NCBI GenBank assembly: GCA_002391185.1
Contig: DGRY01000128.1
Location: forward strand, 1 to 39,539
Reading direction: 5' to 3'
From: Prevotella sp. UBA4376
Lineage (GTDB): Bacteria > Bacteroidota > Bacteroidia > Bacteroidales > Bacteroidaceae
Length of the DNA: 39,539 nt
Notes under the pieces: generated by a model
Databases searched by the model: none
Seen by the model: only the letters and a program-made list of their open reading frames with translations
What the model was told of the DNA's origin: nothing
Shown here: positions 3,199 to 29,379 of the stretch, one piece after another
How positions within the stretch are numbered: the stretch's first letter is position 1
Layout: every line of letters begins with the position of its first letter
Program-made: the position numbers and the translations under genes

Positions 3199-3212
3199 CG
3201 TTTATTTTTATA

Positions 3213-11191: not shown

Positions 11192-11273
11192 GTTTTAGCA
11201 CATTATTCCGTAATTTTGTAGGGCAAAACAACAAAAAAGGGAATAACCACATCGGGCAATAAACGTGCTCGAT
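11192..11273 (+). promoter_or_regulatory. metY promoter and leader hairpin
   Basis: A plus-strand -7 box TAATTTTG (11211-11218) matches TAnnTTTG exactly, with a T-rich TTTTAG at 11192 near the -33 position. The start site is near 11225. The leader of about 78 bases contains an 8-bp stem (ATCGGGCA 11251-11258 with TGCTCGAT 11266-11273, one G-T pair) and a 7-base loop, about 29 bases before the ATG. It does not match a methionine or SAM riboswitch that I recognise. Confidence 0.6.
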
Positions 11274-11302
11274 TGAGAGAACATAAACTAAAATTGAACA
11301 AG

Positions 11303-12586
11303 ATGAAGAAGAATTTGAAACCTGCATCGCTTTGCGTCCAGGCTGGCTACAGAGCACAGAACGGAGAACCTATCGAAGTGCCTATCTATCAGAGCACTAC
11401 ATGGAAATATGACAATTCAGAAGAAATGGCAATGCTGTTCGATCTGAAAAAAGACGGATATTTCTACACACGTCTTGCCAACCCCACCAACGATGCTGTT
11501 GCCAAGAAAATTGCTGCCCTTGAAGGTGGTGTGGGTGCTGTGCTCACATCAAGCGGACAGGCTGCCAATTTCTATGCTGTTTTCAATATCTGCGAAGCAG
11601 GCGACCATATTATAACTGCCAACGAAATATATGGTGGCACATACAATCTTTTTGGTGTAACACTGAAAAAACTTGGCATTGAAGCCACTTTCGTAAATCA
11701 GGATGCCAGCGAAGAGGAAATTCAAAAAGCCTTCCGCCCTAACACAAAATGTGTATTTGGCGAAACAATAAGCAACCCTGGATGTGCTGTTCTCGACATC
11801 GAGAAATTTGCACGCATAGCTCACAAGAATGGTGTTCCATTGATTGTTGATAACACATTTGCAACACCTATCAACTGCCGACCATTTGAATGGGGTGCCG
11901 ACATTGTGACTCATTCCACAACAAAATACATGGACGGAACAGCCTCACAGGTTGGTGGTGTGGTTGTTGACAGCGGAAAGTTCGACTGGATGGCTCATGC
12001 CGACAAGTTCCCTGGTTTGTGCACTCCAGACGAGAGCTACCACGGACTCACCTATGTAAAGGCATTCGGCAACATGGGATATATCACCAAGATGGTTGCT
12101 CAACTCATGCGCGACCTTGGTTCTATCCCTGCACCGATGAACTCTTTCATCCTTAACCTTGGACTGCAAACTCTTCACCTACGCATGGCACAGCATTGCA
12201 AGAATGCTCAGAAAGTGGCAGAATTCTTGCACAACAACGAGAAGGTTGCTTGGGTACATTACTCAGGACTGAAAGACGATGCTTATTACGAGCTTGGACA
12301 AAAATACGTGCCAAACGGTTCATGCGGAGTTATTGCCTTTGGATTGAAGGGCGATCGCGAAACAGCTATCAAGTTCATGGATTCTCTTGAAATGATAAAC
12401 ATTGTTACCCATGTGGCTGATGCCCGCACATGTGTGCTTCATCCAGCAAGTCACACCCACCGTCAGCTGAGCGATGAACAGCTTCGCGAAGCAGGTATTG
12501 CTCCCGACCTTATTCGCCTTTCTGTTGGAATTGAAGATGTCGAGGATATTCTTGATGATATCAAGCAGGCTTTGGAAAAAATTTAG
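11303..12586 (+). CDS. metY: O-acetylhomoserine aminocarboxypropyltransferase/cysteine synthase
   Basis: A PLP-dependent Cys/Met-metabolism enzyme of 427 residues. It makes homocysteine from O-acetylhomoserine and sulfide in direct-sulfhydrylation methionine synthesis. Family features are the N-terminal PIYQSTTW, YTRLANPTNDA, the cofactor contact SSGQAANFY, the VDNTFATP motif with its Asp, and the PLP-binding lysine in HSTTKYMDGT (Lys208 from this start). The C-terminal motif HPASHTHRQL and the closing LIRLSVGIED are typical of MetY-length enzymes. An in-frame TTG at 11273 would add ten residues, but the ATG at 11303 is preferred because it is a standard start and leaves the leader hairpin untranslated. 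It is a single-gene unit with its own promoter and terminator. Confidence 0.95.
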   Translation: MKKNLKPASLCVQAGYRAQNGEPIEVPIYQSTTWKYDNSEEMAMLFDLKKDGYFYTRLANPTNDAVAKKIAALEGGVGAVLTSSGQAANFYAVFNICEAGDHIITANEIYGGTYNLFGVTLKKLGIEATFVNQDASEEEIQKAFRPNTKCVFGETISNPGCAVLDIEKFARIAHKNGVPLIVDNTFATPINCRPFEWGADIVTHSTTKYMDGTASQVGGVVVDSGKFDWMAHADKFPGLCTPDESYHGLTYVKAFGNMGYITKMVAQLMRDLGSIPAPMNSFILNLGLQTLHLRMAQHCKNAQKVAEFLHNNEKVAWVHYSGLKDDAYYELGQKYVPNGSCGVIAFGLKGDRETAIKFMDSLEMINIVTHVADARTCVLHPASHTHRQLSDEQLREAGIAPDLIRLSVGIEDVEDILDDIKQALEKI

Positions 12587-12756: not shown

Positions 12757-14460
12757 TTATTTTCCCCATACTGTTTTCTTATTCTGCAAGCCATCAGCTA
12801 ATCCTGCATAAGAAGTTTGACGGTTATAAGCACTGCTCCACAATCCCATATAACTATCGTTACCTGTGTAATTAGAAACACAAATACCATAACGTTGTGC
12901 AGCTGGTACTTTTTCCATATAGGCTAAAATCACATTGTTCAAATAATCAGATATTTCTATACGCTCTTCATTTGAGAGATCAGAAATCTTACGAGTATTT
13001 TCACTTTCATCAATCACCTGAATATCCAAACCAGAAAGACGAATCTTCAAGCCCGTTGTTGCCAATGATTCTAACATATCCTTAATATCAGATATACTTT
13101 GAGCTGCAGTTGAAGAACTGTATTTGAGATGAATTTCGGCATTAATACCTTCGAGTTTAGCTCCATTTTCATTCCACTGCTTTACCATATTAACAAGGTT
13201 TTGTGTCTTAATAGCATCACCATCAAGATTCTTATCGCTATAGAACAGATGTAAGGCAGGATTTACAGCTAAAGCCGCCTTTGCAAGATCAGCAACAAAA
13301 TTATCACCAAGATATTCATTCCAATAGAACAACTTTGAGTTTTCTTCAACAGAAGAATTCAACAGTACATTGCCAGAATTTCCAGGAGCAAGCGCATTGC
13401 TTGCTATTATCCAATTGCTAATCTTATCGCCATATTCTCCAACAGTTGCCTGCACATACTTATCAAAAGCATTAAGAGCATCTGCTTTCTTTTCTTCTAT
13501 TGGGCGTGGTTCAAAATATCCCTTTTCTGTATAATGAGCTTTTACAACAATGTTATCGAAATAATAGTCAGGATTCGAAGCCACATCACCAATACCTAAT
13601 TGAAAACTTGTAGCTTTTTTATCAGCTTCATCTATTTCAAACTTGGTAAAATCGAGTTTATATCCCTTGCGAGCCCATGAATTTGTAGAAATGTGTTGGT
13701 CTGTAGCAGATGTACCCAAATCTCCACCATACTGTTTTCCGTTAATAAAGAATTTGAGTACAGATGCAGGAACCCAACCAGACTTTGTAAAAAGCAAGTC
13801 ACAATAGCCATCTATGATATCACCCACAGTCATGCCAGCAGGCAATGTAACATTAAATTGAGGATGGTTAAAACCTGTTGTCCAATGTGCAACATGACCA
13901 CTTTTGCCTTTAGGATCTTTAACAATAGTACCAGTAGCTCCACCAGATCCTGGGAATGTGGAGCCTATATCCATGTCTTCAAAATCTAATATTTTGAATT
14001 CACCTATAGCTGGCTTTCCTGGGATATATGTATCGGCAACAACAGTGTTCATGTAAGCAACGTTTGTTGTAGCAGGATCACAGAGCGAAGACCCCATAAA
14101 CGAGAATCCTGCATCTTGAGATTCGCTGATAGCATTTGCCGCCTTTGAATCAACGGTAACATTTCCATTTCCATCAACAACTATTTTATGAGCAAAGAGA
14201 TCATTAAATGTGAGCTCATTAAAATTATTTGTGAGTTGTGATATAGATGTGCCATGGTCAAGGATAGACGAAGAACCCGTTTCTGCACCAACCTTGATAT
14301 CGCCAGCATATTCCTTTAGCACATTATATTGATTAACAAACTCTGCAATAGCAACATTCTCAGGTTTGTCAGTCATAAAATTAGTATCAAAATCACCAGC
14401 ACAGCTCGCCAATAAGGCAAGAGCTGATGCTGAAATGAATATATTTTTTATTTGTTTCAT
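12757..14460 (-). CDS. GH10-like surface lipoprotein without catalytic glutamates
   Basis: A 567-residue lipoprotein (lipobox LLASC, Cys20). Its layout is a GH10 xylanase domain split by an inserted carbohydrate-binding-like beta-sandwich (about 150-310), as in Prevotella Xyn10C-type enzymes. GH10 landmarks can be followed: FNELTFNDLFAH (80-91), KLFYWNEYLGDNFV (376-389), GINAEIHL (438-445) and VPAAQRYGI (518-526). The active site is gone. The acid/base motif WDVVNE reads WIIASN (350-355), and the nucleophile motif (I/V)(T/S)ELD reads LSGLD (475-479), with Gly477 in place of Glu. The usual GHTLxWH motif reads GSSLCDP. It is probably a glycan-binding surface protein. It is the last gene of the SusCD locus, 69 bp after the DUF5627-like gene. 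Confidence 0.82.
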   Translation of the reverse strand: MKQIKNIFISASALALLASCAGDFDTNFMTDKPENVAIAEFVNQYNVLKEYAGDIKVGAETGSSSILDHGTSISQLTNNFNELTFNDLFAHKIVVDGNGNVTVDSKAANAISESQDAGFSFMGSSLCDPATTNVAYMNTVVADTYIPGKPAIGEFKILDFEDMDIGSTFPGSGGATGTIVKDPKGKSGHVAHWTTGFNHPQFNVTLPAGMTVGDIIDGYCDLLFTKSGWVPASVLKFFINGKQYGGDLGTSATDQHISTNSWARKGYKLDFTKFEIDEADKKATSFQLGIGDVASNPDYYFDNIVVKAHYTEKGYFEPRPIEEKKADALNAFDKYVQATVGEYGDKISNWIIASNALAPGNSGNVLLNSSVEENSKLFYWNEYLGDNFVADLAKAALAVNPALHLFYSDKNLDGDAIKTQNLVNMVKQWNENGAKLEGINAEIHLKYSSSTAAQSISDIKDMLESLATTGLKIRLSGLDIQVIDESENTRKISDLSNEERIEISDYLNNVILAYMEKVPAAQRYGICVSNYTGNDSYMGLWSSAYNRQTSYAGLADGLQNKKTVWGK

Positions 14461-14529
14461 AAAAGCATGTTTAAGAATGTCCTGTTATGGTACATTCATA
14501 TTGTTAGATTATTAATTCTCACTTACAAC

Positions 14530-15522
14530 TTATTTTGAAACCGTAAAATACTCTTGTTTAATGCCACGATTACGCACTACAAGTGTATCAGTTGTTGTTT
14601 GACTCTTTGCCAAAGACTCAGATGCGAGAGTATAATTAAGATACAAAGCATTTCTATCTTTGCCACCCATACTATTTTTCTCACCATTCTTAACAAAAGA
14701 ACCTGTGCCCTGTGCAGTAAAGCCAGCAGTAAGAGCACTTATAGTGCATTTATTATCATTATCAAAAGTGAGAAGCAACTGGCATGGAACATTCTTTCCT
14801 GCATTATCTTTCATGTTTACAGTCATCACAACCTGATTAAACGCCTTGGTTGCAAGTTTTATCACTTCATCGTTCTCTACATACTGATTGTGACGAACAA
14901 CAGTAACCTTTTCTGCTGCAGTAGTAATTTCATCAACACCATGACGCAGATAATCTGCATGCCAAGGATTTACATACTTCACTGCACACAACACAAAGTC
15001 TTGCCCTTTCAATATGCTATCAGCTCCCTCTACATTTGTGATTCGAAGCGGAATAACATAAGTATTCTTCACTGCATTTGCGTCGGCAAAGAATGCATCT
15101 GTAAAATGAACAGTAACACCACCTTGAATTTTTCCAGCAGGAATAATAAGTTTATTATCATCAAGAGTGTAGTAGTTCTCAGGCATAACTGTTACAGCAG
15201 TGCCATCGCTAAATTTCTGTCCCACGCAAATTGAAGGATCAACAACAAATGTTGCACGAATATCCTTATCGTTAGAATATCCTCCACCAATAGCTGCATT
15301 AATAGATATCTGGTGCAGATTATCGTTCGTAAGGTCAACCTGCGGATCTTCACCAAGTTCTATTGTGCGAATATATCCCTGATTAGAGAAATAAACGGCT
15401 GTGTGATCGTAATTTGGAAAATCATTGTCTCCATTCTCACACGCAGAGAAGAAAAGTAAAGCCGATAATGGGCATATAATACTCAATGCCGCTTTTGCCT
15501 TATAAAATATTGTTGTCTTCAT
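14530..15522 (-). CDS. DUF1735/DUF5627-like surface lipoprotein (XusE-like position)
   Basis: A 330-residue predicted lipoprotein (lipobox LLFFSAC, Cys about 28). The N-terminal half (about 35-185) resembles the DUF1735 beta-sandwich: AVYFSNQGYIRTIELGED, the stretch VMPENYYTLDDNKLIIPAG, and YVIPLRITNVEGAD. The C-terminal half (about 190-330) looks like DUF5627: the start is NPWHADYLRHG and the end is VVRNRGIKQEYFTVSK. Proteins of this kind sit in xylan-type loci between the SusD and GH10 genes, the position of xusE in Prevotella bryantii. A role in binding glycan at the cell surface is inferred. It is preceded within the operon by a strong hairpin. Confidence 0.78.
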   Translation of the reverse strand: MKTTIFYKAKAALSIICPLSALLFFSACENGDNDFPNYDHTAVYFSNQGYIRTIELGEDPQVDLTNDNLHQISINAAIGGGYSNDKDIRATFVVDPSICVGQKFSDGTAVTVMPENYYTLDDNKLIIPAGKIQGGVTVHFTDAFFADANAVKNTYVIPLRITNVEGADSILKGQDFVLCAVKYVNPWHADYLRHGVDEITTAAEKVTVVRHNQYVENDEVIKLATKAFNQVVMTVNMKDNAGKNVPCQLLLTFDNDNKCTISALTAGFTAQGTGSFVKNGEKNSMGGKDRNALYLNYTLASESLAKSQTTTDTLVVRNRGIKQEYFTVSK

Positions 15523-15575
15523 TATAATTCAATATTAGTTATTACCTAAATTAGTGTAGATTTCATTATTCTCCC

Positions 15576-15599
15576 CCTCTCTCTCGTGCGAGAGAGAGG
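15576..15599 (-). promoter_or_regulatory. Strong intercistronic hairpin inside the SusCD operon
   Basis: A perfect 11-bp stem (CCTCTCTCTCG / CGAGAGAGAGG) with a 2-base loop lies between the SusD2 stop and the DUF5627-like start. There is no T-run after it on the minus strand, so it is more likely an mRNA-stabilising or processing element than a simple terminator. Confidence 0.65.
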
Positions 15600-15607
15600 A
15601 AAGAAAA

Positions 15608-17371
15608 TTATTTCCATCCCTTGTTTTGCTGAATGTTGCTGTATTTCAAAACTTCAGAATGAGGAATTGGTCCATAATACATATAATCTTCATACTTTCT
15701 TGCTTCAACATTGTCAAGAGGAGTGAATGTTTCTGTTCCCCAGTCAATACCTCGAGCAGTTTCAGTAATAGGAGCTTTCCAACGACGAAGATCCCAGAAA
15801 CGGAAACTTTCAAAACACAATTCCAAACGACGTTCGTTGCGAATAAGCTCACGCATTTTATCCTTGTCGAGAGCACATTCATCAAGATACTCTGTATCAG
15901 TGATGCCTGCACGCTGACGTATAGCCTTTATAACATCATAAGCAGAATACTCGTGTGTGCCCTTACCTTTAGGTCCCCATGCCTCATTAGCAGCTTCTGC
16001 ATAGTTAAGGAAGAATTCTGTGAAACGCAAACGTGGAATCAAGTGAGTAGCCTTAGATGTTGATGCAGGATTACAGTTAACGTTCATAATAAGACGTTTC
16101 TTCATGTAATATCCAGTACGAGTAGATGTTTCCTTAACATTTATACCATCATCAGTATTCAATTTGCTACCAGTTAAGATAACATTATTCTGTGGTCCTT
16201 CTGTTGCACCATTATAAATAATGTATTTAGCCAATCGAGGATCACGTCCTACATAAGGGTTATTTTTATCATAATGACTTCTCGCATCATTAATAGGATA
16301 ACCATTAGCCATAGGGAATGCATCAACAAGATTCTGTGTAGGATTGATAAAGCCCTTACCAAATAATGAAGGAGGATAATTATTACTTTCCTGATCAGCA
16401 TTATTAGTAGCAAGATTCTCACGCCACAGAATTTCTGCAGGATTGCTTCCTTCTTTAATAGCAGCAATTTCGTCGGTATTACAATAATATGTCACACCAT
16501 TTGCAGCCAAACCAGCAACACCACCTATTTTATCTAATAACTGAGCAGTAGCATCGGCAGCCTGTTCCCATGAAACATCATTACTTTCATTCTGATAAGC
16601 AGGTGATGCAGCCAAAAGAAGCAAACGAGAACGGAATGCACGAACAATATTGGCATTTACCAACCCACGTGCATTATTACCCATAACAAGGTTATAATCA
16701 CCAGAAAGAGTTACATAATCATATTTAGCAGGAATGTGGTTTTTGTCAACATCAGCATAATCATCTGGCAGCAACTCTTCAGCAGCATCAAGATCTTTCT
16801 TTATCATATCAACACTCTGCTTAAACGAAGCACGTGGTTGATTAAAATCGGCATTTGCTCCCATGAATTTGTCAAGCAGCAAAACACCAGCAAGATTACC
16901 ATCAGCAGTATATCCACTATGTGCACGTAACAAGAAATAATGATGAATAGCACGCAAAGCATAAGCTTCACCATGTAAGCGTTCATTAAGCAACTTGTTA
17001 ATTACTTCATTTTGCTTATATTTTATGTCGTGTGCATTTTCAAGGAAAATATTCAAATACTGAATAGCACTATAATCAGATGTCCATTGATTAAATGGAT
17101 TTGTTTCTGATGTCCAAGAACCAGTAGCTATTTTCAAGAAAATATTGTCTTTGCTATTTGTAACCGCATCGTCAGTGGCTACATCACTATTATCGTAGTA
17201 TCCAGGAAGAGTACGATATGCAGTAACCATGAAGCCTTTAGCAAAATCAGGCTCTTTCTGCATCATATCAATGTCCTTAAAGTTCTCAATAGCAGGATCT
17301 ATGAGGTCGTCACAAGCCGTGAGACTGCACGCCATTAGTACTCCCAGACATAATTTATTTAATTTATTCAT
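15608..17371 (-). CDS. SusD/RagB-family glycan-binding lipoprotein (second pair, XusD-like)
   Basis: A 587-residue SusD homologue. A lipobox (LTAC, Cys about 20) puts it on the outer membrane. TPR-type helices of the family are visible, for example LHGEAYALRAIHHYFLLRAH, and the C-terminal RagB signature RNERRLELCFESFRFWDLRRW is intact. It forms the lid of the neighbouring SusC transporter and captures oligosaccharides. It follows SusC2 by 18 bp, so the two are co-translated partners. The second SusC/D pair after the first matches the xusC-xusD part of the Prevotella bryantii xylan locus. Confidence 0.93.
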   Translation of the reverse strand: MNKLNKLCLGVLMACSLTACDDLIDPAIENFKDIDMMQKEPDFAKGFMVTAYRTLPGYYDNSDVATDDAVTNSKDNIFLKIATGSWTSETNPFNQWTSDYSAIQYLNIFLENAHDIKYKQNEVINKLLNERLHGEAYALRAIHHYFLLRAHSGYTADGNLAGVLLLDKFMGANADFNQPRASFKQSVDMIKKDLDAAEELLPDDYADVDKNHIPAKYDYVTLSGDYNLVMGNNARGLVNANIVRAFRSRLLLLAASPAYQNESNDVSWEQAADATAQLLDKIGGVAGLAANGVTYYCNTDEIAAIKEGSNPAEILWRENLATNNADQESNNYPPSLFGKGFINPTQNLVDAFPMANGYPINDARSHYDKNNPYVGRDPRLAKYIIYNGATEGPQNNVILTGSKLNTDDGINVKETSTRTGYYMKKRLIMNVNCNPASTSKATHLIPRLRFTEFFLNYAEAANEAWGPKGKGTHEYSAYDVIKAIRQRAGITDTEYLDECALDKDKMRELIRNERRLELCFESFRFWDLRRWKAPITETARGIDWGTETFTPLDNVEARKYEDYMYYGPIPHSEVLKYSNIQQNKGWK

Positions 17372-17389: not shown

Positions 17390-20197
17390 TTAGAATGTAA
17401 TCTTAACACCAAGGTTATAGAAACGACTCTGAGGAGCACTTCCTACATTGAGTTCATTAATGTCGTTGTGTGAACTTATAGTAGCAAGATTTTCGCCCAA
17501 TACATATACACTCATACCAGTGACAACACTATGGAACCAGTTTGCAGGCATATCATAAGTTAGTTGCACTCTATTCAAAGTGAACTTATCTGTGCTATAA
17601 CGCCAGAATGTTGAATTACGGAAATTATTGCTGTTGTCTGTTGTAGTGAGTCGAGGATAAGAAGCCGTTGCAGCAGTTTCAGGAGTCCAACGTCCCAATA
17701 CCACCTCACTATACTTGCTTGAGCCTTTCACCCAATAGTAACTATTGTTTTTAAATCCAATAGCTCCAGTCATTCCTGTACCAGCAGCATAGAGAGTAAA
17801 GTTTTTATATTTTAAAGTGAGATTAACACCATAAATAAATGGTGCAGCACTCCACCCTGCCTTACCAAGGTCGATTTGGTCTTTAGAGTCAACAACTCCA
17901 TCTTCGTTAATATCCTTATACTTCAAATCACCAGGCTTAACTTCACCAAACTGCTGTTTTGCATGTGCAGCAATGTCGGCATCATCAGCAAAGAATCCTT
18001 CACATACATATCCCCACTGAGCATCAAGAGCACGTCCTGAGCGATATAAATACTGCTCATCCCACACCTCATCACGCTTCTTAGCGTTTGTTGTGAGAAC
18101 TTGTCCGTTCAAACCAAGAGCAGCTTCAATTTTTCCAAATTTCTTATGAGCATTTACAGAGAAGTCGAAGCCTTTTCGTGTATCTTGGTTGAAATTGGTA
18201 TATGGTAAGAAAGAACCATTACCTTGGAAGAAAGAAGGATAAATAGTAGATCCACCTTGTGTTAGCAATCCGTCTGTGAGTTGATTGAAATAGTTGAAAT
18301 CAACTGTTAACATACGATTCAGGAATGAAGCTTCAAATCCGAGACGCAATTCCTTACGCTGAACAAAGCCGAGTTCTAAGTTTGTACCACGAGATGAAAG
18401 AGATGTGAATCCACCTTGTGACGAATCTTTCCACTGATACCAACCACCTTTAGCATTGTAATATCCCTGATACATATAATAGTCAGAAATATCCAAATCT
18501 TGATTCAACACTGCATAAGATGCATTAATCTTTGCATCATCAACAAAAGGCAATGCGTTCTTGAACCATTTCTCCTGTCCAATGCGCCATCCTAAAGTTA
18601 CAGCTGGTGAAAGAGCGTTACGCTTTCCTTCTGGCAGTTTTGCAGAATGAGCCAAAGCGCCTGCCAGTTCAAGATAATACAGATGATTGAAATTATAATT
18701 CAAACGTAAACCCGCATTAATATTACTGATACGGTGATATGACGAGCTGTTATGATCAGAGTCACTACTGCTCTGTCGCTGAAATCCCCATCCCATTAAT
18801 GTTGCCGCAATGTTATGAACTTTATTGAAAGAGCGTGCCCAATCAAACTGCCCTCTGAAAGTCATTGTTTGGTCGTAAGAACTACTACCAACATACTCGC
18901 TTGTAGAGTTTGTGTCTTTTCCATACTTTTTAAGACCAATAATCATGTCACGACCATTCATATTACTCCAAGTAGGTTCAAAAACGGCATATCCCACTTT
19001 CCAAGCCTCAGAATAGTAATCCTTATAGTCAACACTATATGCTGTAGTGAAAGACAAACCTGGTGTAATCATGCTCAAATCAGCTTTCACGCCAACATCA
19101 AACATAAAGAAACGAGTTTTATCCTTTACATAACCTGCAACAAGCATATCTCCCCATAGTGTTGATGTATCAACAGAAGAACCACCAAGGAGATAATTAC
19201 CATCAATGATATTATTGGTTGTTTCAACCATATTTCTGATAGTCTGATTATCCATGTCCAGTGAACTGATAGGGATAAGTGGATTATACCAGTTAGGACG
19301 CAAGTTGGCTGCTGCACCCCAGAAATCTCCACGACCAGCATAAGCATTGTTGATGTTGATATCAACATTAGCAAAGGCCTTCATCCATGAATTAATCTTC
19401 ATGTCGATGTTGGCACGCACACGGAAATCAAGGTTATTGTCGTTCTTTCTCTCACCATACTTTAGGAAACTGCTATTATATGTCATTCCTAAATTAGCAT
19501 AGTATTGAGCACTTTCGTTTCCACCTGTAATTTCAAGAGTAGCATCTGTGCGATTATATGCCTTTCGCAAGAACTTACTACTGTAGAGATCCATATCAGG
19601 ATATCTTTCAGGATTAGCTCCAACAGCAGTATTATAAATAAGGTCGTCGGAATACTGAGCAGCCTTGCCATCATTGCTGCATGCCTCATTATAAAGGCTC
19701 ATATATTGTGCAGCCCCAAGATAATGTGGATAACGCTTAGCGAAATAAAGTCCGGTATTAGCTGTAGCTTCAACAGTGAGACGCTGCTTCTTACCTCGTT
19801 TTGTAGTGATAAGAACAGCACCCTTTGCTCCACGTGAACCATAGAGAGCTACAGCCGATGCGCCTTTAAGAACAGTAACCGTTTCTATTTCTGTGGCATT
19901 GATAGCCGATGCATCACGTGGAACGCCATCAACAAGCACTAATGGAGCCTGTCCCCAAATATTACCATTATATCCACCTACAAGCGATGAGATATCATCA
20001 AGACTATATGCATGATAGTCTTTTTTCATCAGCTTTTGCACATTAACTTCGCTGACACCGCCCATAAGATCGGTCTTATTAGTTTTGCCGAAAGCAATAT
20101 TTACTTGTTCGGCAAGCGAATCGGCAGATTCCTGAGCTATTGCCGCAAAAGGAAAACAGCAAAGTCCGACTGCTATATATTTTTTTAATTTATTCAT
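17390..20197 (-). CDS. SusC/RagA-family TonB-dependent transporter (second pair, XusC-like)
   Basis: A 935-residue outer-membrane transporter. The signal peptide ends in AAIAQ. The plug domain follows almost at once: VNVQKLMKKDYHAYSLDDI, LVLVDGVPRD and ETVTVLKGASAVALYGSRGAKGAVLITTKRGKK-type sequence, and the barrel ends in LGVKITF. Unlike the first SusC in the locus it lacks the N-terminal carboxypeptidase-regulatory-like domain, so it is about 100 residues shorter. It takes up glycan fragments across the outer membrane with the TonB system. It lies 50 bp downstream of SusD1. Confidence 0.93.
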   Translation of the reverse strand: MNKLKKYIAVGLCCFPFAAIAQESADSLAEQVNIAFGKTNKTDLMGGVSEVNVQKLMKKDYHAYSLDDISSLVGGYNGNIWGQAPLVLVDGVPRDASAINATEIETVTVLKGASAVALYGSRGAKGAVLITTKRGKKQRLTVEATANTGLYFAKRYPHYLGAAQYMSLYNEACSNDGKAAQYSDDLIYNTAVGANPERYPDMDLYSSKFLRKAYNRTDATLEITGGNESAQYYANLGMTYNSSFLKYGERKNDNNLDFRVRANIDMKINSWMKAFANVDININNAYAGRGDFWGAAANLRPNWYNPLIPISSLDMDNQTIRNMVETTNNIIDGNYLLGGSSVDTSTLWGDMLVAGYVKDKTRFFMFDVGVKADLSMITPGLSFTTAYSVDYKDYYSEAWKVGYAVFEPTWSNMNGRDMIIGLKKYGKDTNSTSEYVGSSSYDQTMTFRGQFDWARSFNKVHNIAATLMGWGFQRQSSSDSDHNSSSYHRISNINAGLRLNYNFNHLYYLELAGALAHSAKLPEGKRNALSPAVTLGWRIGQEKWFKNALPFVDDAKINASYAVLNQDLDISDYYMYQGYYNAKGGWYQWKDSSQGGFTSLSSRGTNLELGFVQRKELRLGFEASFLNRMLTVDFNYFNQLTDGLLTQGGSTIYPSFFQGNGSFLPYTNFNQDTRKGFDFSVNAHKKFGKIEAALGLNGQVLTTNAKKRDEVWDEQYLYRSGRALDAQWGYVCEGFFADDADIAAHAKQQFGEVKPGDLKYKDINEDGVVDSKDQIDLGKAGWSAAPFIYGVNLTLKYKNFTLYAAGTGMTGAIGFKNNSYYWVKGSSKYSEVVLGRWTPETAATASYPRLTTTDNSNNFRNSTFWRYSTDKFTLNRVQLTYDMPANWFHSVVTGMSVYVLGENLATISSHNDINELNVGSAPQSRFYNLGVKITF

Positions 20198-20247: not shown

Positions 20248-22122
20248 TTATTCCCAACCAGGGTTCTGCTTAAATCCTTCATACATCTGCACATCCTTAC
20301 GTGGGAATGGAAACCAATAATGCTTATCGGTAAGCTGTCGTGTGAACAACACTTCCTCCCGAAGGTTCAATACATGATTGTTCTTTGGGTTTTCATAGCG
20401 CTCTTCATCAGTTTGATCAGCAGCACGATCGAAGTAAACAGCTGTTTTCTTATTATAAGGAGCCTTATCGAGAAGCAACCAACGACGAAGGTCGTTATAT
20501 CTATGTCCTTCGAAAGCCAATTCAACAGCACGTTCACGACGAAGTTCGCTCATGAACTTATCAACCTCTCCTGTATATTCAGCATCTATGCCTCCTACTC
20601 CTGCACGTGCACGAACCTTATTAACAGCTGCAATAGGATTCATAGAATAGTTAGTTGATGTAGCAGTGAGAGAGCCATAGCCTTGAGCAACAGCTTCAGC
20701 ATACATAAGATAAATATCTGCCAAACGAACCAAGCTAAGTGTAACCTGATTGTTTTCACGATAGCCATCCCAATCGTTAGCATATTGAGAATCCCACTTC
20801 ATATTCAAATAACCAGTGAAACAGTCTTTGTCGCGATTAGCAACACGATATGTACCACCAGTGTAGAGCGAAGCATATTGGCGATGTGGATTGTTTCCTA
20901 CATAGTTACCAGCTTTCACGCATTTCACTCCATCAAACACAAAGTTTTCATAGAAACGTGGATCTCTGTCACGGAATGGATATTCTGGATCGTATCCGCT
21001 TTCAGCATCCTTTTTAGTAATATCCTTGATAGGTTTACCATTTGCCATACCGAAATAGTCGGCATAGTTAGCAGTAGGATAACACTTGATACCAGAACCA
21101 GAGAGAGTTGATGGACGGAAGTCATTAACCATGTTCCAGCGCCAGTTGTTATTTACATTCTCATAGAAGATAGCTTCTTTCAAACCAGGAGTTTTGTAGT
21201 TTTGGTTGAAAGTGTAGAACAGAAGCGAATAATCCTTAAAATCGGCAAGTTCATATCGCTTTGTTTCGTCACATATCTTCAATATCTCTCCGAAAGCCTG
21301 TGCTGCTTTCTGGCAATACTCTTTGTTGTATTCAGCTTTACCTTGGCTCTCTTTGTTCATCAATGGCGAACCAGCCCATAGAAGATCCTTTCCCAAGAAA
21401 GCCAAACACATCACCTTATTAATGCGAAGATTATTCTTTCCGAGTGTAGCTTTTCCAACTGTTGTTTGATCCCAGTCAATAGGAAGCAAATCGGCAGCAG
21501 CCTGGAAATCCTCAGCAGCCTTATCAGCAGTTTGCTGATAGTTCAATCGTGGATATCGCATAACGGCATCGGCAGGAATTTCCATATCGATATATGGCAG
21601 TCCGCCCCAGTTCTGCATCAACAGGAAATGGAAGAAGCCACGGAAGAAAAGAAGTTGTCCTTTAATGAGTTTCTTTTCCTCGTCAGTGGCATCCTGAAGT
21701 AAGTCAAGATGTGCCAATCCAACATTAGCTTTTCGAATACCATACCATGACATACCCCAAAGGTGTCCCTTGTTGTCACGATTTGTACTAGTTGGATTTC
21801 CTGTTCCTGAGTGGAAATACGAATAATAGCTTTCGTCCCATCCCCAGTTGTTACCATGGTCAATAGCATAAGCAAGCATACGGGTTTCATTAGGCTGCCA
21901 ATATTCGTCTTCACCAAAATTCCAGCAACAATGGAAATCAGGTGTTGTCATCATAGGAATAGTATTATAGAGCTCATCGGTGAAACCTTGAAAGTTCATA
22001 TAATTTTTATATGGATCTGTATCTCCAATATCACTCAAAGGTGATTTGTCAAGATAGTCTTTACATGATGTTGTCATAGCAAGAGCAGCAACAATCATGA
22101 TATTATAAAAAACTTTTTTCAT
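20248..22122 (-). CDS. SusD/RagB-family glycan-binding lipoprotein (first pair, XusB-like)
   Basis: A 624-residue SusD homologue with lipobox TTSC (Cys20) followed by KDYLDKSPLSD, a typical family start. The TPR region includes KGQLLFFRGFFHFLLMQNWG. The C-terminal family signature is ELRRERAVELAFEGHRYNDL followed by RRW, and the protein ends FKQNPGWE, as do many SusD proteins. It is the surface lid and binding partner of SusC1, whose gene ends 13 bp upstream. Confidence 0.94.
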   Translation of the reverse strand: MKKVFYNIMIVAALAMTTSCKDYLDKSPLSDIGDTDPYKNYMNFQGFTDELYNTIPMMTTPDFHCCWNFGEDEYWQPNETRMLAYAIDHGNNWGWDESYYSYFHSGTGNPTSTNRDNKGHLWGMSWYGIRKANVGLAHLDLLQDATDEEKKLIKGQLLFFRGFFHFLLMQNWGGLPYIDMEIPADAVMRYPRLNYQQTADKAAEDFQAAADLLPIDWDQTTVGKATLGKNNLRINKVMCLAFLGKDLLWAGSPLMNKESQGKAEYNKEYCQKAAQAFGEILKICDETKRYELADFKDYSLLFYTFNQNYKTPGLKEAIFYENVNNNWRWNMVNDFRPSTLSGSGIKCYPTANYADYFGMANGKPIKDITKKDAESGYDPEYPFRDRDPRFYENFVFDGVKCVKAGNYVGNNPHRQYASLYTGGTYRVANRDKDCFTGYLNMKWDSQYANDWDGYRENNQVTLSLVRLADIYLMYAEAVAQGYGSLTATSTNYSMNPIAAVNKVRARAGVGGIDAEYTGEVDKFMSELRRERAVELAFEGHRYNDLRRWLLLDKAPYNKKTAVYFDRAADQTDEERYENPKNNHVLNLREEVLFTRQLTDKHYWFPFPRKDVQMYEGFKQNPGWE

Positions 22123-22135
22123 GATAGATGATTCT

Positions 22136-25100
22136 TTAGAATGTTAAATCAAGTCCGAGATTGAAACGACGCACTGTTGGATAAGCGCCATCGCCTCCAC
22201 TAAAGTTATTCTCTCTGTCGTCAGGCATTTTTGTCCAAAGCAAGAGGTTGTCGCCATTAAGATAAATGCGCAAGCCATTAAGGTGAGCACGCTTTAGCCA
22301 GTCGCCATGGAACGTATATGCAAGCTCAGCATTTTTCAAACGCAAGAAAGAGCCATCATAATAGTAACGTGTACCATTTGCACTATTATCAGTTATTGTT
22401 ACCCAACGAGGCAATGGCAATTCTCCATTATTTGCAATAACGTTGTAATAATTACCCTCCTTGAAGGCAACATGTGCTTCGCGCTGGAATGTTGGGAATT
22501 GCACCTGACGTGTAACGTTTGTAACTCCATAGAACTGCAATGTTAGCGACAATCCTTTCCATTCAGCTTGGAAAGTAGTACTATATGTGTTCTGTGGAAT
22601 GCTTGAGTATTTATATGGTGCACAATCTTCAGATGTGATCTTACCATCAGCATTGAAGTCGATTATCTGATAATCGCCCATAAACTTTGAGTCGTTGTTT
22701 GATTCGACAACAGGACTACCATATAATTCGTCCCAAGTTCTAATGTATCCATGGTCAAGATATGAACGAGTTTGGTTAATAGCATAGCCTTCACCCTTGA
22801 GATAAGCAGCTCTAAGCTCTGGATCGTCGGCAAACTTCACTTTATTCTTCGCATGTGTCATGTTGAAATTCAATGATGTGCGGAAATCAGATGTCCATTG
22901 CTTATTCAGACGAACAGCAAGTTCAAATCCATGTGAATCAACCTTACCTAAGTTAGCTGCAGGTGCACCAACACCAAAATAGCTTGGAATAGCACGCGAT
23001 GTGATGATGATATCGGTACGATGGTCGTTGAATATATCAAGCGAACCTGTAATTAAACCACCGAGGAATCCATAATCGATACCAAGATTGCGCTTTTCAA
23101 CAAGCTCCCAACCCACATTAGGGTTACCTATTTTTGTTTGTCTATAAATGGTGTAAGGGGCTGCTGTGCGATCGGTGCCCATAACAGTGTTTCCACCATA
23201 AGCCCACTCGTCTCTGTGCAGCCAGCGTCCGTTTCCGCCCTTGTCGTCACCAATGCGACCCCAAGAAGCACGAATCTTTACCATATCAATATATTTAGCC
23301 AAAGGCTTCATGAATGATTCTTCAGTTAGCATCCATCCAAGAGAAACAGAAGGGAAGAAATCGAAACGCTTGTTTTCACCAAACTGCTCAGATCCGTTGT
23401 ATGCTCCATTCACCTCAGCAAAATAGCGTGAAGCATAGTTGTATGTTGCACGGAACACCCAGTCTTCACGATAATGAGGGAACTGTGATCCCACAGCATA
23501 TTTCTCGCGTGAGAACAATCCCATAGCTGTTACATCGTGCTTTCCAAACTGTCGTGCCCAGTTTAACTGCAGCTGATAGTAGAGCTTACGGAAAGTAGCT
23601 CCACGATCAACATTACCACCTTGTGTAACCCAGTTTACTGTTTCTGTGAAGTCGCGATCAAGCTGATAATCCACCTGTCCGCTCTCAGGATTAATCCATT
23701 TGCGTTGTGAATCGTTGCCTTGGTCGTTGATACCACGGTCAACCTCAACCATTGTGTTATCAAACGACAGGTTTGCTCTGAAGCTCAAACCTTTTGTAAC
23801 GAAATCAAGTTTTTGATTAAGTATAAAGTCGGTAGTGATTTGGGTGTTTGTGCGACGTTCATCACCACCCACCGACAAAGAATAAACAGAGTTTGGCACA
23901 TCAGCATTACGAGGTCCATAATATCCGTATGTTCCATCGCTGTAAATAGGACGCATTGCGTCAGGAGCAGAATGATATACCGAAGCCCAGAAAGCATTGG
24001 TTACATTGCCATCTGATTTCTGATGATAAGGTGATCTGCGCACTCCATTAGAACCAAACAAGTTTGTAGAGAACTTTGTTGTTTTAGTTAGATCAAAGTC
24101 GAGGTTAGCACGCAAGTTGATGCGGTTATAGCCAAAACCTGAAGAATATCCTCTATTGGTGGTAAACTTCTTGAACAAGTCGCCTTCATGAGTGAAATCA
24201 ATGGCAGCAAAGTATTTTACACTCTTTGTACCGCCTGATACATCGGCTCCTGCATTATACGACATGGCATAATCACGGAAGAGTTCTTTTTGCCAATCAA
24301 CATTTGGATATCGATCCCATTCTTCTTGATTTGCAGGATAACGATATTTGTTGATAATTCCCATTGGTTTGTAATGTGCCCAAGCACCCTCGTTCATAGC
24401 GAGTTCGCGCTCAACAACATCGTTAAGCAACAAGAATGTGTCATAAGCGTCATACTTTTCTGGAAGTTTAGAAACAAGTTTCACAGTGGTATTAGCCTTT
24501 ACATGTACGTTTGCCTTACCTTCCTTACCACGTTTGGTGGTGATAAGAATAACACCATTAGCACCTTTCACACCGAAAACGGCAGTTGCCGAAGCATCTT
24601 TCAGGACAGAAATAGACTCAACAGATGACACGTCAACAGTGTTCATTGGACGCTCTACACCATCAACAAGCACAAGTGGGTCGCTGTTGTTCCATGATGT
24701 CTGTGTACGAATGACAATCTTTGGATCTTCCTCACCAGGAAGACCGGTAGAAGAACTTGTAATAACTCCAGGGAGGTTACCAGTGAGAGCCTGACCCAAA
24801 GAAGGAACGCCTTGATAACGTTTCAATGTGCGCTCATCAGTTTGTGTGATAGCACCAACCACAGAGGCTTTCTTTTGTTGTCCATAACCAACAACAATTA
24901 CTTCAGAAAGCTCGTTGTCGTCTTCAAGTGTAACATTAACCTTGTGCCCACGTGAAACTTTCACTTGTTTAGATTTCATTCCTACATAAGAAATGACAAG
25001 AACAGAATTCTCACTTGGTACAGTAATTGTGAAATTACCATCAAAATCACTGACAGCACCTGCGCCTTTGGCGCCTTTCACCGTTACATTTGCACCAATA

Positions 25101-25258
25101 ATAGGTTCATTGTTACGATCTGTAACGTTTCCGTTAACTTTAAATCCCTGTGCTTGCATACAGATGCAAAACATGAGGAAAAGAACTGCTAACGAAACAC
25201 GTCGCAAATTGCCTAACCAACATGGTGAAATGCAAAAATGCAATTTAAGTTTTTTCAT
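22136..25258 (-). CDS. SusC/RagA-family TonB-dependent transporter (first pair, XusA-like)
   Basis: A 1040-residue transporter. After the signal peptide (about 1-37) comes the carboxypeptidase-regulatory-like domain (about 39-110: VNGNVTDRNNEPIIGANVTV). The linker VIVVGYGQQKKASVVGA and the plug with LVLVDGVERPMNTVDVSSVE follow, then a large barrel ending in LGLDLTF. It imports glycan oligosaccharides. It is the first gene of the polysaccharide-utilization operon, with a promoter box just upstream and the hybrid regulator next to it, and corresponds in position to xusA. Confidence 0.95.
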   Translation of the reverse strand: MKKLKLHFCISPCWLGNLRRVSLAVLFLMFCICMQAQGFKVNGNVTDRNNEPIIGANVTVKGAKGAGAVSDFDGNFTITVPSENSVLVISYVGMKSKQVKVSRGHKVNVTLEDDNELSEVIVVGYGQQKKASVVGAITQTDERTLKRYQGVPSLGQALTGNLPGVITSSSTGLPGEEDPKIVIRTQTSWNNSDPLVLVDGVERPMNTVDVSSVESISVLKDASATAVFGVKGANGVILITTKRGKEGKANVHVKANTTVKLVSKLPEKYDAYDTFLLLNDVVERELAMNEGAWAHYKPMGIINKYRYPANQEEWDRYPNVDWQKELFRDYAMSYNAGADVSGGTKSVKYFAAIDFTHEGDLFKKFTTNRGYSSGFGYNRINLRANLDFDLTKTTKFSTNLFGSNGVRRSPYHQKSDGNVTNAFWASVYHSAPDAMRPIYSDGTYGYYGPRNADVPNSVYSLSVGGDERRTNTQITTDFILNQKLDFVTKGLSFRANLSFDNTMVEVDRGINDQGNDSQRKWINPESGQVDYQLDRDFTETVNWVTQGGNVDRGATFRKLYYQLQLNWARQFGKHDVTAMGLFSREKYAVGSQFPHYREDWVFRATYNYASRYFAEVNGAYNGSEQFGENKRFDFFPSVSLGWMLTEESFMKPLAKYIDMVKIRASWGRIGDDKGGNGRWLHRDEWAYGGNTVMGTDRTAAPYTIYRQTKIGNPNVGWELVEKRNLGIDYGFLGGLITGSLDIFNDHRTDIIITSRAIPSYFGVGAPAANLGKVDSHGFELAVRLNKQWTSDFRTSLNFNMTHAKNKVKFADDPELRAAYLKGEGYAINQTRSYLDHGYIRTWDELYGSPVVESNNDSKFMGDYQIIDFNADGKITSEDCAPYKYSSIPQNTYSTTFQAEWKGLSLTLQFYGVTNVTRQVQFPTFQREAHVAFKEGNYYNVIANNGELPLPRWVTITDNSANGTRYYYDGSFLRLKNAELAYTFHGDWLKRAHLNGLRIYLNGDNLLLWTKMPDDRENNFSGGDGAYPTVRRFNLGLDLTF

Positions 25259-25407: not shown

Positions 25408-28400
25408 TTACACCTTGTTTTTATCTACATATGCTGTTGGATTCACCCCATAATACCTTTTAAAAAGACTTGAGAAGTGTGCCAAGCTCTTGAATCCAAC
25501 CTTATAGGCAACCTGACTGACATTAACATTGTTCTCACTTAGCAAACGTGCTGCTTGCTTCAAACGTATGTTTCGGATAAATTCGCCAGCAGCTATTCCT
25601 GTGAGTTGTTTCATTTTTCGATGTAACTGCACTCTACTCAAGCCCACATCGGTAGCAAGATTTTCTACTCCATAATCGCAATCGGTGTAATTGCTGTTTA
25701 CCGACGAAACGATTTTTTCCATCAAGAGTTTATCATTGTCCTCTATTTCTATTTTTTCTATCTTGTCGTTTTGTTCCTGCATACCAGAATATTTACCACG
25801 AAGACGCCGCACATTATCAACAAGATTATCGATTGTGGCATGCAGCTCGCTCACAGCAAATGGTTTTGCGATAAAGGCATCAGCACCATTTTCCAATCCT
25901 ACAAGGCGGTCGTCAACCTCAGCTTTTGAAGTGAGCAAAATAACTGGAACGTCACTAATATTTGGATTTTGCTTCACATTCTTCAACAAAGTAATACCAT
26001 CCATTTCGGGCATTACTACATCAGAGATAAGCAAATCATATTGATCGGCAAGAAGGGCATTGAGTGCTTCGACTCCGTTGCTGACAATCTTTATGCAATA
26101 CCATGGAGATAGTTCCATCTTAATGTATTTAGCTATTTCAACATCGTCATCGGCAACAAGAATTCGACAATCTTTGCGCGATTTACTCTTTTGTGTTGCC
26201 ACTCTCACCGCTACTGATTCTTCTATCTGTTCGGGCAATAAATGGTGTTTGCCCCTAAGCAAAGTAATTTCAAATCGACATCCTTGTTTTCCATCCTCTC
26301 TGCCTGCAGCGGTAATGGTTCCGTGATGCAGTTCTACAAGCTGTTTGCACAGATTCAATCCTATACCAGTTCCAACTACATTATATCCATGTGAATTGCT
26401 TCCTTGATAGTATCTGTCAAAAACTCGCGCATAATCTTTTTCGCTCATTCCCACTCCATTGTCCTCAAAGCTTATCACCACTTCACGCGTTTTTTCTTTT
26501 ATGTCGATGTTAATTTCTCCACCATCAAATGTGTATTTTACCGCATTTGACAGCAGATTATTTATAACTTTTTCCATATTTAATCGATCCACATACACAT
26601 ATATCGCTTTTCTATTATGTGTTACGTTAATCGAAATGTTTCGTTCTCGTGCATGAAAGCCATAGAGTGCCACAATGCCATTCACCATGCCCACCATATC
26701 GGCTTTGCAACAATGAATTTGCATCAGATTAAGATCTATCTTGCGCACATCAAGAATTTGATTAACAAGAGTGAGCATGCGTTGAGCATTTCGTTCAACA
26801 ATATCAATATATCGCTTACTTTCATTGTTTTTGGCATATTCTCTCAACTTTCTTAAAGGTTCAATGATTAATGTTAATGGCGACCTGATATCGTGTGTGG
26901 CATTGATAAGAAATCGCATTTTTTGCTCTTCATATTGCATTTTTAATCGTTTTCGTTTATAACGATTAAGTGCCATCAATACCAAAATAAAAAATATAAG
27001 ATATATCACCTTTGCAAAGATGCTTGCATACCATGGTGCTGCTATTCTGAGCCTTATTGCTGATGTTTCGCTATATTGTCCATTTATTAATGCTCTAAAC
27101 TCTATTTTATAACATCCCGATCGCATTTTGCTGAAAGTAAACGAGTTTTCTCCCTCCTGAGTTTGATGCCACACACTATCTTTATCTAAGCGATATTCAT
27201 ATGTAACATACTCGGGATGAATGTAATCGAGCATAGACATCTCCATGGTGAAACTTGTACTTTCTGCCGGAATAACAAACTCACTCTGTCTGAAATCGAG
27301 AGGCACACCATCAACAAGAAAACGCGACAAAGCAACCTTGCGTTTTGCATTGTGTTCTTTTCGCAAATCATCTGGATTAAAAACCACAACTCCACGGTCT
27401 GTGCCAAAAATGAGTCGTCCATCGGGCAACATAAAAGCCGCATTCTGCACATATTGCTTTGCTTCAAGCCCGTTACCTTTAAGATAACTTGTAAACGTGT
27501 GGTTCTCTCTGTTGTAATGCCATATTCCTTCAGATGTGCTCATCCATGCATCACCATATTTATCGAGAATAATACTATATATTTGCAAGTCGCACAAAGC
27601 ATCAGCCCCTTGCATACGTGCCACCTTATTTTTTTTACGATTATAGTAGAACAAGCCATTGGTGGTGCCAATGATAATATTTCCCAACACATCCTCACAA
27701 CAACCATACACAAGCTGATGAGTAAGCAGATTGGTCCAGCCATATTGCAGGAAAGTGTTTCGGTCGGGATTATAACAGCTCACTCCATCGGCAGTAGATA
27801 TCCACACCAACCCTTGTCGGTCTATCATTATACTCTGTATCCAGCTATTATTCAAGCGGTCTTTTTTAGTTACAGGAGCTCCTGTTATCTCGACACTGTT
27901 CCTTGTGCTGATATTATACATGCCGAAAGCATGTCCCACAGCACAATAATAGAGCATTCCTCGGTGGTTGTCAACAGCAATGTGCTCTATTTCAAAGTTC
28001 TTATTGTTCAGTATTTGCTTAAATGTTCCACCATTTGGCTGATACAGCCAAATGAAATGCCCACCACAAGTCCAATATCTGTTTTGACTATCGCGAACAA
28101 TACTTTTAACCTCCGCCTTAGTGGGATAATACGACACCACATTGCCTTGATTGTTCAAGGTATAGATACCATCCTGTGAGATTGCTCCCATAAGTTCAGT
28201 ACCACAGAGCGACATTGCCGACAGAATTTTCCCCTGTGGATCACAGCCTTGCTCTATAGCCCAGAAATCAAACACATCAGTGTTAGATGAGAGATGATAC
28301 ACCCCTGATTGATAACAACTAAGCCACAAACTGCCATTGGCATCCTCACAAATCCAGTTCACATTAGATTTGGGCATCACTGGTTTGCCATCGACAATAA

Positions 28401-29274
28401 GAGTTTCGGCCTTGCGTGCACCTTTTTTTATTATATAAACACCATTGGCACGTGTGCCAATAACGAAACTGCCGGCACGCGTTTTATATGCTCGCTTTAT
28501 CTTGGCTCCTTGCAACAACGACAAATCAAAACCAGCATCAACAAACACTCGTTTCTTTTCGTCATATTTCAGTATTCCATCTGGACAAAATGCAAGGATA
28601 TTTTTTTTGTCGTCACACAAAAACGACATCACCGACCCTTTTCCCGTATTAAATGAACGGGTAACCATCTTCCCATGTTCCTTGCTACAGGCATAAATCT
28701 TGGGCAAAAAACTTGTTGTAAAAAGAGTGTTTTTCTTGCCAATAATAAACTGATTGCAGAAATTTATGCCTTCCACCTTCAAATTATACATCATTCGGCT
28801 CGCCTTATTGCCCTTAATGCGAAAAAGGCCATAGCCTGCCGTGCCCGCAAGAATAGCACCATCGGGAGCTTCATTAATATAAGTAATGTGTATTTTTTCT
28901 TTCAAAGGAAGTTCAATGCGATCAAAATCATCGGTAGCATAGTTATAACGACACAATCCGTCACCTGTGCCCACCCATAATTCGCCTTTCTTTGAAACAT
29001 ACAAGGTTATAACATCTATTCCGGTAAGCGAACGAGGATTTTTGCCCGAGTGTTTGTAACTTACAAAATGGTAACCATCAAATCGGTTAAGTCCACATTC
29101 GGTTCCAACCCATATAAAACCATATTTGTCTTGAGCAACACATAATGTTCGGCTACTTAACAAACGATTGGCTCCATAGAGTTCACCTTTCATGGCAAAG
29201 GCTTCATTTGTCGCAAAAAATAATGCAACCATAGTAATAATGGCTGCAATTGCATTTCTCATTGTTTTAGTCAT
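25408..29274 (-). CDS. Hybrid two-component system regulator (HTCS)
   Basis: One protein with sensor, kinase, receiver and AraC-type output, about 1288 residues from this start. Order: signal sequence; two-bladed-propeller periplasmic sensor of Reg_prop repeats (motifs like DKYGFIWVGTECGLNRFD); a Y_Y_Y domain; one membrane segment (IFAKVIYLIFFILVLMAL); histidine kinase with NATHDIRSPL (His near residue 790), NLLSNAVKYT, DNGVGM and GTGIGL; receiver with VADDDVE and the acceptor Asp in ISDVVMPEMDG; AraC helix-turn-helix to the C-terminus. All key residues are intact. It likely senses an oligosaccharide and activates the SusC1 operon next to it. The ATG at 29274 is chosen because a promoter box lies at 29302-29309; an upstream in-frame GTG at 29328 lies beyond it. 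Confidence 0.93.
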   Translation of the reverse strand: MTKTMRNAIAAIITMVALFFATNEAFAMKGELYGANRLLSSRTLCVAQDKYGFIWVGTECGLNRFDGYHFVSYKHSGKNPRSLTGIDVITLYVSKKGELWVGTGDGLCRYNYATDDFDRIELPLKEKIHITYINEAPDGAILAGTAGYGLFRIKGNKASRMMYNLKVEGINFCNQFIIGKKNTLFTTSFLPKIYACSKEHGKMVTRSFNTGKGSVMSFLCDDKKNILAFCPDGILKYDEKKRVFVDAGFDLSLLQGAKIKRAYKTRAGSFVIGTRANGVYIIKKGARKAETLIVDGKPVMPKSNVNWICEDANGSLWLSCYQSGVYHLSSNTDVFDFWAIEQGCDPQGKILSAMSLCGTELMGAISQDGIYTLNNQGNVVSYYPTKAEVKSIVRDSQNRYWTCGGHFIWLYQPNGGTFKQILNNKNFEIEHIAVDNHRGMLYYCAVGHAFGMYNISTRNSVEITGAPVTKKDRLNNSWIQSIMIDRQGLVWISTADGVSCYNPDRNTFLQYGWTNLLTHQLVYGCCEDVLGNIIIGTTNGLFYYNRKKNKVARMQGADALCDLQIYSIILDKYGDAWMSTSEGIWHYNRENHTFTSYLKGNGLEAKQYVQNAAFMLPDGRLIFGTDRGVVVFNPDDLRKEHNAKRKVALSRFLVDGVPLDFRQSEFVIPAESTSFTMEMSMLDYIHPEYVTYEYRLDKDSVWHQTQEGENSFTFSKMRSGCYKIEFRALINGQYSETSAIRLRIAAPWYASIFAKVIYLIFFILVLMALNRYKRKRLKMQYEEQKMRFLINATHDIRSPLTLIIEPLRKLREYAKNNESKRYIDIVERNAQRMLTLVNQILDVRKIDLNLMQIHCCKADMVGMVNGIVALYGFHARERNISINVTHNRKAIYVYVDRLNMEKVINNLLSNAVKYTFDGGEINIDIKEKTREVVISFEDNGVGMSEKDYARVFDRYYQGSNSHGYNVVGTGIGLNLCKQLVELHHGTITAAGREDGKQGCRFEITLLRGKHHLLPEQIEESVAVRVATQKSKSRKDCRILVADDDVEIAKYIKMELSPWYCIKIVSNGVEALNALLADQYDLLISDVVMPEMDGITLLKNVKQNPNISDVPVILLTSKAEVDDRLVGLENGADAFIAKPFAVSELHATIDNLVDNVRRLRGKYSGMQEQNDKIEKIEIEDNDKLLMEKIVSSVNSNYTDCDYGVENLATDVGLSRVQLHRKMKQLTGIAAGEFIRNIRLKQAARLLSENNVNVSQVAYKVGFKSLAHFSSLFKRYYGVNPTAYVDKNKV

Positions 29275-29276
29275 TA

Positions 29277-29379
29277 TTTTTAAGATGGTAGATACACTGT
29301 ACAAAAGTATCAAAAAAGTGCAACACACATTTTTTAATATGTTTCATTGTTTTTCTTGTACGTTACACCATCTTAAAAA
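29277..29379. repeat. Inverted repeat flanking the HTCS promoter
   Basis: The 13-mer TTTTTAAGATGGT (29277-29289) recurs as its exact reverse complement at 29367-29379. The similarity continues outward with one gap (TCAT) and inward with GTACAA. The 77 bases between carry the HTCS promoter. The layout is like invertible promoters of Bacteroidota, though no invertase gene is in the window. Confidence 0.7.
29302..29309 (-). promoter_or_regulatory. Promoter of the HTCS gene
   Basis: The minus-strand box TACTTTTG (29302-29309) is identical to the one before SusC1. The start site would be near 29296, about 22 bases before the ATG at 29274. The box lies inside the inverted repeat listed at 29277-29379. 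Confidence 0.6.

Follow-up and report, generated by a model that had tools for sequence, protein, structure and literature searches.

A pseudo-GH10 protein of Prevotella sp. UBA4376 as a probable surface glycan-binding derivative of a xylanase

The 39,539-nt stretch of the gut bacterium Prevotella sp. UBA4376 analyzed here (contig DGRY01000128.1; "the window" denotes this whole stretch) encodes, as the last gene of a polysaccharide utilization locus (PUL) resembling the xus clusters of xylan utilization, a glycoside hydrolase family 10 (GH10) protein that lacks both glutamates needed for an active GH10 xylanase. Membership of GH10 is indicated by both a profile match and the barrel fold. We consider it very likely, from sequence and by analogy with a characterized Bacteroides ovatus protein, that it is a surface glycan-binding protein derived from a xylanase with an inserted carbohydrate-binding module (CBM), in the slot otherwise held by Xyn10C, and that it captures complex xylan without cutting it. 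The protein has the following features (below, G-numbers denote genomes, L-numbers loci, and P-numbers protein-search matches).

12757..14460, minus strand: lipoprotein-like pseudo-GH10 of 567 aa, with neither catalytic glutamate
14401..14460, minus strand: signal peptide with a lipobox-like LASC at its end (Cys20)
13516..14019, minus strand: inserted CBM-like jelly-roll module (approximately residues 148-315; 146-318 modelled)
13396..13398, minus strand: Asn355 codon, in the place of the GH10 acid/base glutamate (from sequence and alignment)
13030..13032, minus strand: Gly477 codon, in the place of the GH10 nucleophile glutamate (from sequence and alignment)

The original prediction of a GH10-like protein with both catalytic glutamates lost was borne out by alignment: neither glutamate is kept in any of 10 aligned rows, and the position of Cys20 is cysteine in all 10. 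With the intact Xyn10C of the same genome as the reference, 11 of 13 active-site positions are altered. Across the 11 rows of the window clade, the acid/base column is invariably Asp or Asn; the nucleophile is replaced by Gly, Ala or Asn; and none of the equivalents of H79, W83, H84 and W305 remains. Other residues are newly fixed (e.g., P129, N381 and S408). The predicted binding module inside the GH10 fold was likewise recovered: modelling of residues 146-318 gave a jelly roll, with CBM15, CBM22 and CBM11 as the nearest folds; no Pfam family matched this insert.

The window gene order is a hybrid two-component sensor/regulator (HTCS), SusC, SusD, SusC, SusD, XusE and the pseudo-GH10, in agreement with the xus-like locus that had been proposed. 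The HTCS ahead of the cassette of G030 is 50% identical to that of the window. The other cassette genes are as follows.

14530..15522, minus strand: XusE-like protein (BT_3987-like N-terminal domain and DUF5627), with 3N91 as its sole PDB sequence match
15608..17371, minus strand: second SusD-like protein
17390..20197, minus strand: second SusC-like protein
20248..22122, minus strand: first SusD-like protein
22136..25258, minus strand: first SusC-like protein
25408..29328, minus strand: HTCS, with a GTG start as listed

In xus clusters, described as xusA-xusB-xusC-xusD-xusE-xyn10C (PMC7848910), the same slot after XusE is held by Xyn10C, a GH10 barrel also interrupted by a CBM; unlike the window protein, Xyn10C is an active xylanase, and the copy in the same genome, which as the reference has all 13 active-site positions, is only 25% identical to it. 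A closer counterpart is BACOVA_03431 of B. ovatus PUL-XylL, reported as an inactive, surface-exposed GH10 that binds xylans (Rogowski 2015, PMC4491172). As described there, it is a GH10 relative and lipoprotein that lacks the nucleophile; its gene follows the one for the DUF1735-DUF5627 protein in a double SusCD locus, an order also found in the window. Because of this match, the window protein would be a variant of a published kind of surface glycan-binding protein rather than a new kind. It is apparently further eroded than BACOVA_03431, and it additionally lacks the acid/base glutamate. BACOVA_03431 was not found by accession in two protein searches, whose scoring is restricted to the candidates with the most shared words. 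The 737-aa-type forms at this place in Bacteroides-like genomes, which were not compared by accession, are 25-29% identical to the window protein over 306-492 residues. The neighboring BACOVA_03430 (3N91) is reported as not binding, BACOVA_03432 is a GH30, and BACOVA_03433 is a GH98 endo-xylanase for which corn xylan was the sole active substrate of those tried (PMC4491172). The same article draws a comparison with GH18 chitin-binding lectins lacking catalytic residues, in which the hydrolase fold of another family has been reused for binding. The B. ovatus case is also cited in PMC4855328, and PMC11610566 remarks that a GH10 of Phocaeicola might have a similar binding role; PMC12333352 was rejected as an inactive-GH10 case, the protein there being a GH107. 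No inactive GH10 from Prevotella was found in the literature searched.

The same genome also encodes an active paralogous cassette: contig C124 carries SusC, SusD, SusC, SusD, XusE, the intact Xyn10C and a GH5 gene, with a GH51-like gene at the opposite end. Identities between the two cassettes are, in gene order, 51, 44, 44, 49, 38 and 25%, and the match to 3N91 is stronger for the window XusE (284 bits) than for the active-type XusE (200 bits). All six genomes that hold a window-type protein have a second match to the GH10 profile, which in five (G000, G030, G052, G038 and G274) is a GH10 that has both glutamates and follows an active-type cassette; for G211 the evidence is the profile match.

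A tree of concatenated SusC2, SusD2 and XusE (36 loci, 1824 columns, LG+G4) places the window in a 20-locus clade (support 100/100) that we term the XylL-like lineage, a label based on gene order and 3N91 rather than on any accession of B. ovatus. Within this clade, 12 GH10-like proteins have neither glutamate, six the acid/base residue only, and two have both, whereas among the 16 other, xus/XylS-like loci both glutamates are present in 10 and the acid/base residue only in six. The two XylL-type members with both glutamates keep only 6 and 3 of the 13 active-site positions, so loss of the glutamates may follow, or be independent of, erosion elsewhere in the site. The GH10 tree (60 of 82 rows, after 22 near-copies, fragments or gappy rows were dropped; motif columns masked; inferred without a mixture model) divides into a group of 28 rows, of which 27 have both glutamates, and one of 32 rows, of which two do. 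The two trees conflict over L064, L098, L099 and L101, whose GH10s (FDLIDEA/RLSNFDIK) group with the degenerate rows in the GH10 tree, attached to a long branch that was flagged with a warning, and whose cassettes fall outside the XylL-like clade in the cassette tree; they also conflict over G786, whose protein groups with the 737-aa type and whose cassette groups with those of G346 and G130. The nucleophile state requires four changes on the GH10 tree and five on the cassette tree, neither of which infers the direction of change; the deep GH10 branches are long and of uncertain placement. A single ancient loss of the nucleophile was rejected on these counts, and we infer that the changes were losses, i.e., repeated inactivation.

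Two further degenerate forms were observed outside the XylL-like clade. The FDLIDEA/RLSNFDIK group (L097-L101 and L064) keeps the acid/base glutamate and possibly represents a separate loss. In G676 (L122, 1574-3316), a GH10 with WNVLDEP and RISGLDM keeps the acid/base residue, has lost the nucleophile, and retains 5 of 13 active-site positions; it follows a cassette that the tree places with the active-type loci.

The neighbors of related cassettes point to their target. Genes for GH98 or GH30 lie within the fetched flank of 18 of 22 XylL-type loci vs 0 of 10 active-type loci (Fisher 1.6e-5); L001, near-identical to the window and also without these genes, was left out, G211 was classed by its GH10 alone, and the active-type flanks comprised approximately 10 kb of downstream sequence except in two loci with less than 3 kb. 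The XylL-type loci without GH98 or GH30 are the window, G030, G052 (where the contig ends right after the gene), and one of two G796 loci, where GH115 is present but the sole GH30-like match is weak (56 bits). GH115 occurs near one of the 10 active-type loci; GH29 and GH95 genes are also found near XylL-type cassettes, and one active-type cassette (G052) also has a GH95 gene nearby. Where Bacteroides-like genomes encode the 737-aa-type protein, the order is SusCD-SusCD-XusE-GH10, followed by GH30 and/or GH98 and/or GH115, like that of PUL-XylL. By analogy with PUL-XylL, these data support a probable link between the cassette lineage of the window and more complex xylan. Within approximately 50 kb, G796 (L103-L105) carries an intact GH10, GH95-like and GH115-like genes, and an XylL-type cassette with a GH10 lacking both glutamates (WDIASCP/RISDLN).

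The pseudo-GH10 would be made as a lipoprotein, probably displayed at the outer surface, and would no longer cleave xylan. The inserted CBM-like module, perhaps aided by the emptied barrel cleft, may capture complex glucuronoarabinoxylan and pass it to the SusD/SusC pairs, while the backbone would be cut by another enzyme, such as the GH98 or GH30 of related loci. No GH30, GH98, GH115 or other hydrolase gene of the PUL was found within the window; in this it differs from PUL-XylL, a difference that we do not count as defining for the protein. One GH98 gene was found in the genome (71% complete), on contig C3 beside two GH3 genes, and shares 73% identity with the GH98 piece of the G033 locus across 206 residues.

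The original prediction had left a choice between a xylanase turned surface glycan binder and a locus for a different glycan; the two are compatible, and both would fit the homology and gene order shared with PUL-XylL and the conserved frame. A ligand other than xylan, of plant or host origin, for which the barrel is a mere scaffold, would be in keeping with the extent of active-site change, an insert without a Pfam match, and a PUL without a xylan-specific enzyme of its own. Nevertheless, related cassettes lie beside GH98, GH115, GH30, GH29 and GH95 genes, much like the corn-xylan PUL-XylL, and the published relative binds xylans (PMC4491172), so that a different-glycan locus is weakened and we regard such a ligand as unlikely.

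Decay into a functionless gene is less probable still. A search of approximately 5.8 billion proteins (E up to 1e-10; 7993 candidates scored) gave 10 matches: nine close relatives (41-98% identical) and P0010, an intact, longer GH10 (24%); the cluster represented by P0001 counts 394 members. All nine close relatives lack both glutamates and have open frames, which argues against decay of the window gene; P0002-P0009 are 41-48% identical to it over nearly the whole length and share the newly fixed residues. At least six of 398 genomes of the genus, its own included, have a member of the tight group (≥765 bits) without an internal stop, the G211 copy being truncated by the contig end, and more divergent relatives lie in XylL-type cassettes of at least six further genomes (G284, G346, G281, G156, G033 and G130). 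These counts are lower bounds, with three candidates scored in most genomes and a G316 relative emerging only with the wider profile. A first profile at E 1e-60 had found the window alone among 399 genomes, likewise a lower bound because the laxer search with the wider profile found more degenerate GH10s. The proposed check for purifying selection gave a divided answer: two other close pairs have replacement/silent ratios (0.08 and 0.26) that fit constraint, whereas the window and L001, a locus of an uncultured Prevotella sp. from a sheep sample, differ by 20.5 replacement and 3.5 silent changes (ratio 1.7, interval 0.66-6.2). Also favoring decay are the lower conservation of the pseudo barrel than of the active one, the 0.26 of L054/L056 being above its neighbors (Fisher 0.03), and an interrupted relative in G284. 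Equally improbable is an enzyme with a rebuilt active site, e.g., via the Asp at the acid/base place of most relatives: the constant Asp/Asn there and the two XylL-type relatives with both glutamates would allow it, but the nucleophile column and the missing H79, W83, H84 and W305 equivalents speak against it, as does the published relative, inactive on xylans (PMC4491172).

The last slot of these cassettes is unusually variable. The window neighbors are 98.9-100% identical to those of L001, and four neighbor genes together have 17 replacement and 34 silent differences (Fisher 20/4 vs 17/34, 6e-5); the insert codons of the pseudo-GH10 account for 13 replacement differences and one silent, and 16 of 22 sites varying among the window, L001 and P0001 lie in the insert (binomial 4e-5). 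This falls short of demonstrating positive selection, since the interval of the window-L001 ratio extends below one. The slot has been exchanged in two of six close pairs compared. The active Xyn10Cs of G274 and G038 (L116 14418-16097 vs L117 1657-3342) are 52% identical between neighbors at 96-99.8%, and the pseudo-GH10s of G346 and G130 (L043 9656-11389 vs L050 5497-7047) are 31% identical, with three compared neighbors at 87-93%. In a break scan of these two pairs, nucleotide similarity breaks off approximately 100 bases into the gene in both; in G274/G038 it is regained, at 81%, over the gene's second half. Slot identities in the remaining four pairs are 97, 99, 93 and 88%, near or slightly below the neighbors. 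Across eight active loci, the slot (0.52) falls below SusC/D (0.59-0.63) and above XusE (0.46); across four pseudo loci, it is 0.46 vs 0.67-0.75 for SusC/D and 0.57 for XusE. That the slot evolves fast only through being dead is thus unsupported as such, the active slot also lying below SusC/D. In the pseudo-GH10s, conservation appears from the sequences to have shifted from the barrel to the insert.

A broader, tentative reading is that the last xus-type slot may be a hypervariable surface slot, in which GH10 lost its activity in several independent events as cassettes turned to complex xylan and constraint passed from the barrel to the insert. Both active and dead versions would be subject to diversifying selection and to exchange of alleles, with phage, immunity or glycan variants as the driving force; we hold this reading possible, but doubtful. 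Repeated inactivation, such a conservation shift, and a hypervariable slot were not found in the literature searched. The variable insert raises the question of what drives change at the slot, and active and dead cassettes in one genome permit a clean test of a division between simple and complex xylan. Under its Pfam name of GH10, the window protein would be listed by a family count as a xylanase, and as most GH10 genes of the XylL-type lineage lack the catalytic residues, xylanase counts from family matches are likely too high; catalytic residues and cassette type together offer a cheap way of separating cutting from gripping versions.

Three minor observations concern genes near these loci. 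In G284, a second GH10-like gene (L042, 4359-6119) is interrupted by a stop and adjoins a GH98 gene. In L001, three open reading frames (ORFs) at 13293-16183 adjoin an OmpA-sized ORF and have no same-size counterpart between the window ORFs 9668-10834 and 11273-12586. At 1132-7576 of the window, adjoining genes for DUF4838, TPR/YaiO-like and family 2 glycosyltransferase proteins are possible exopolysaccharide genes.
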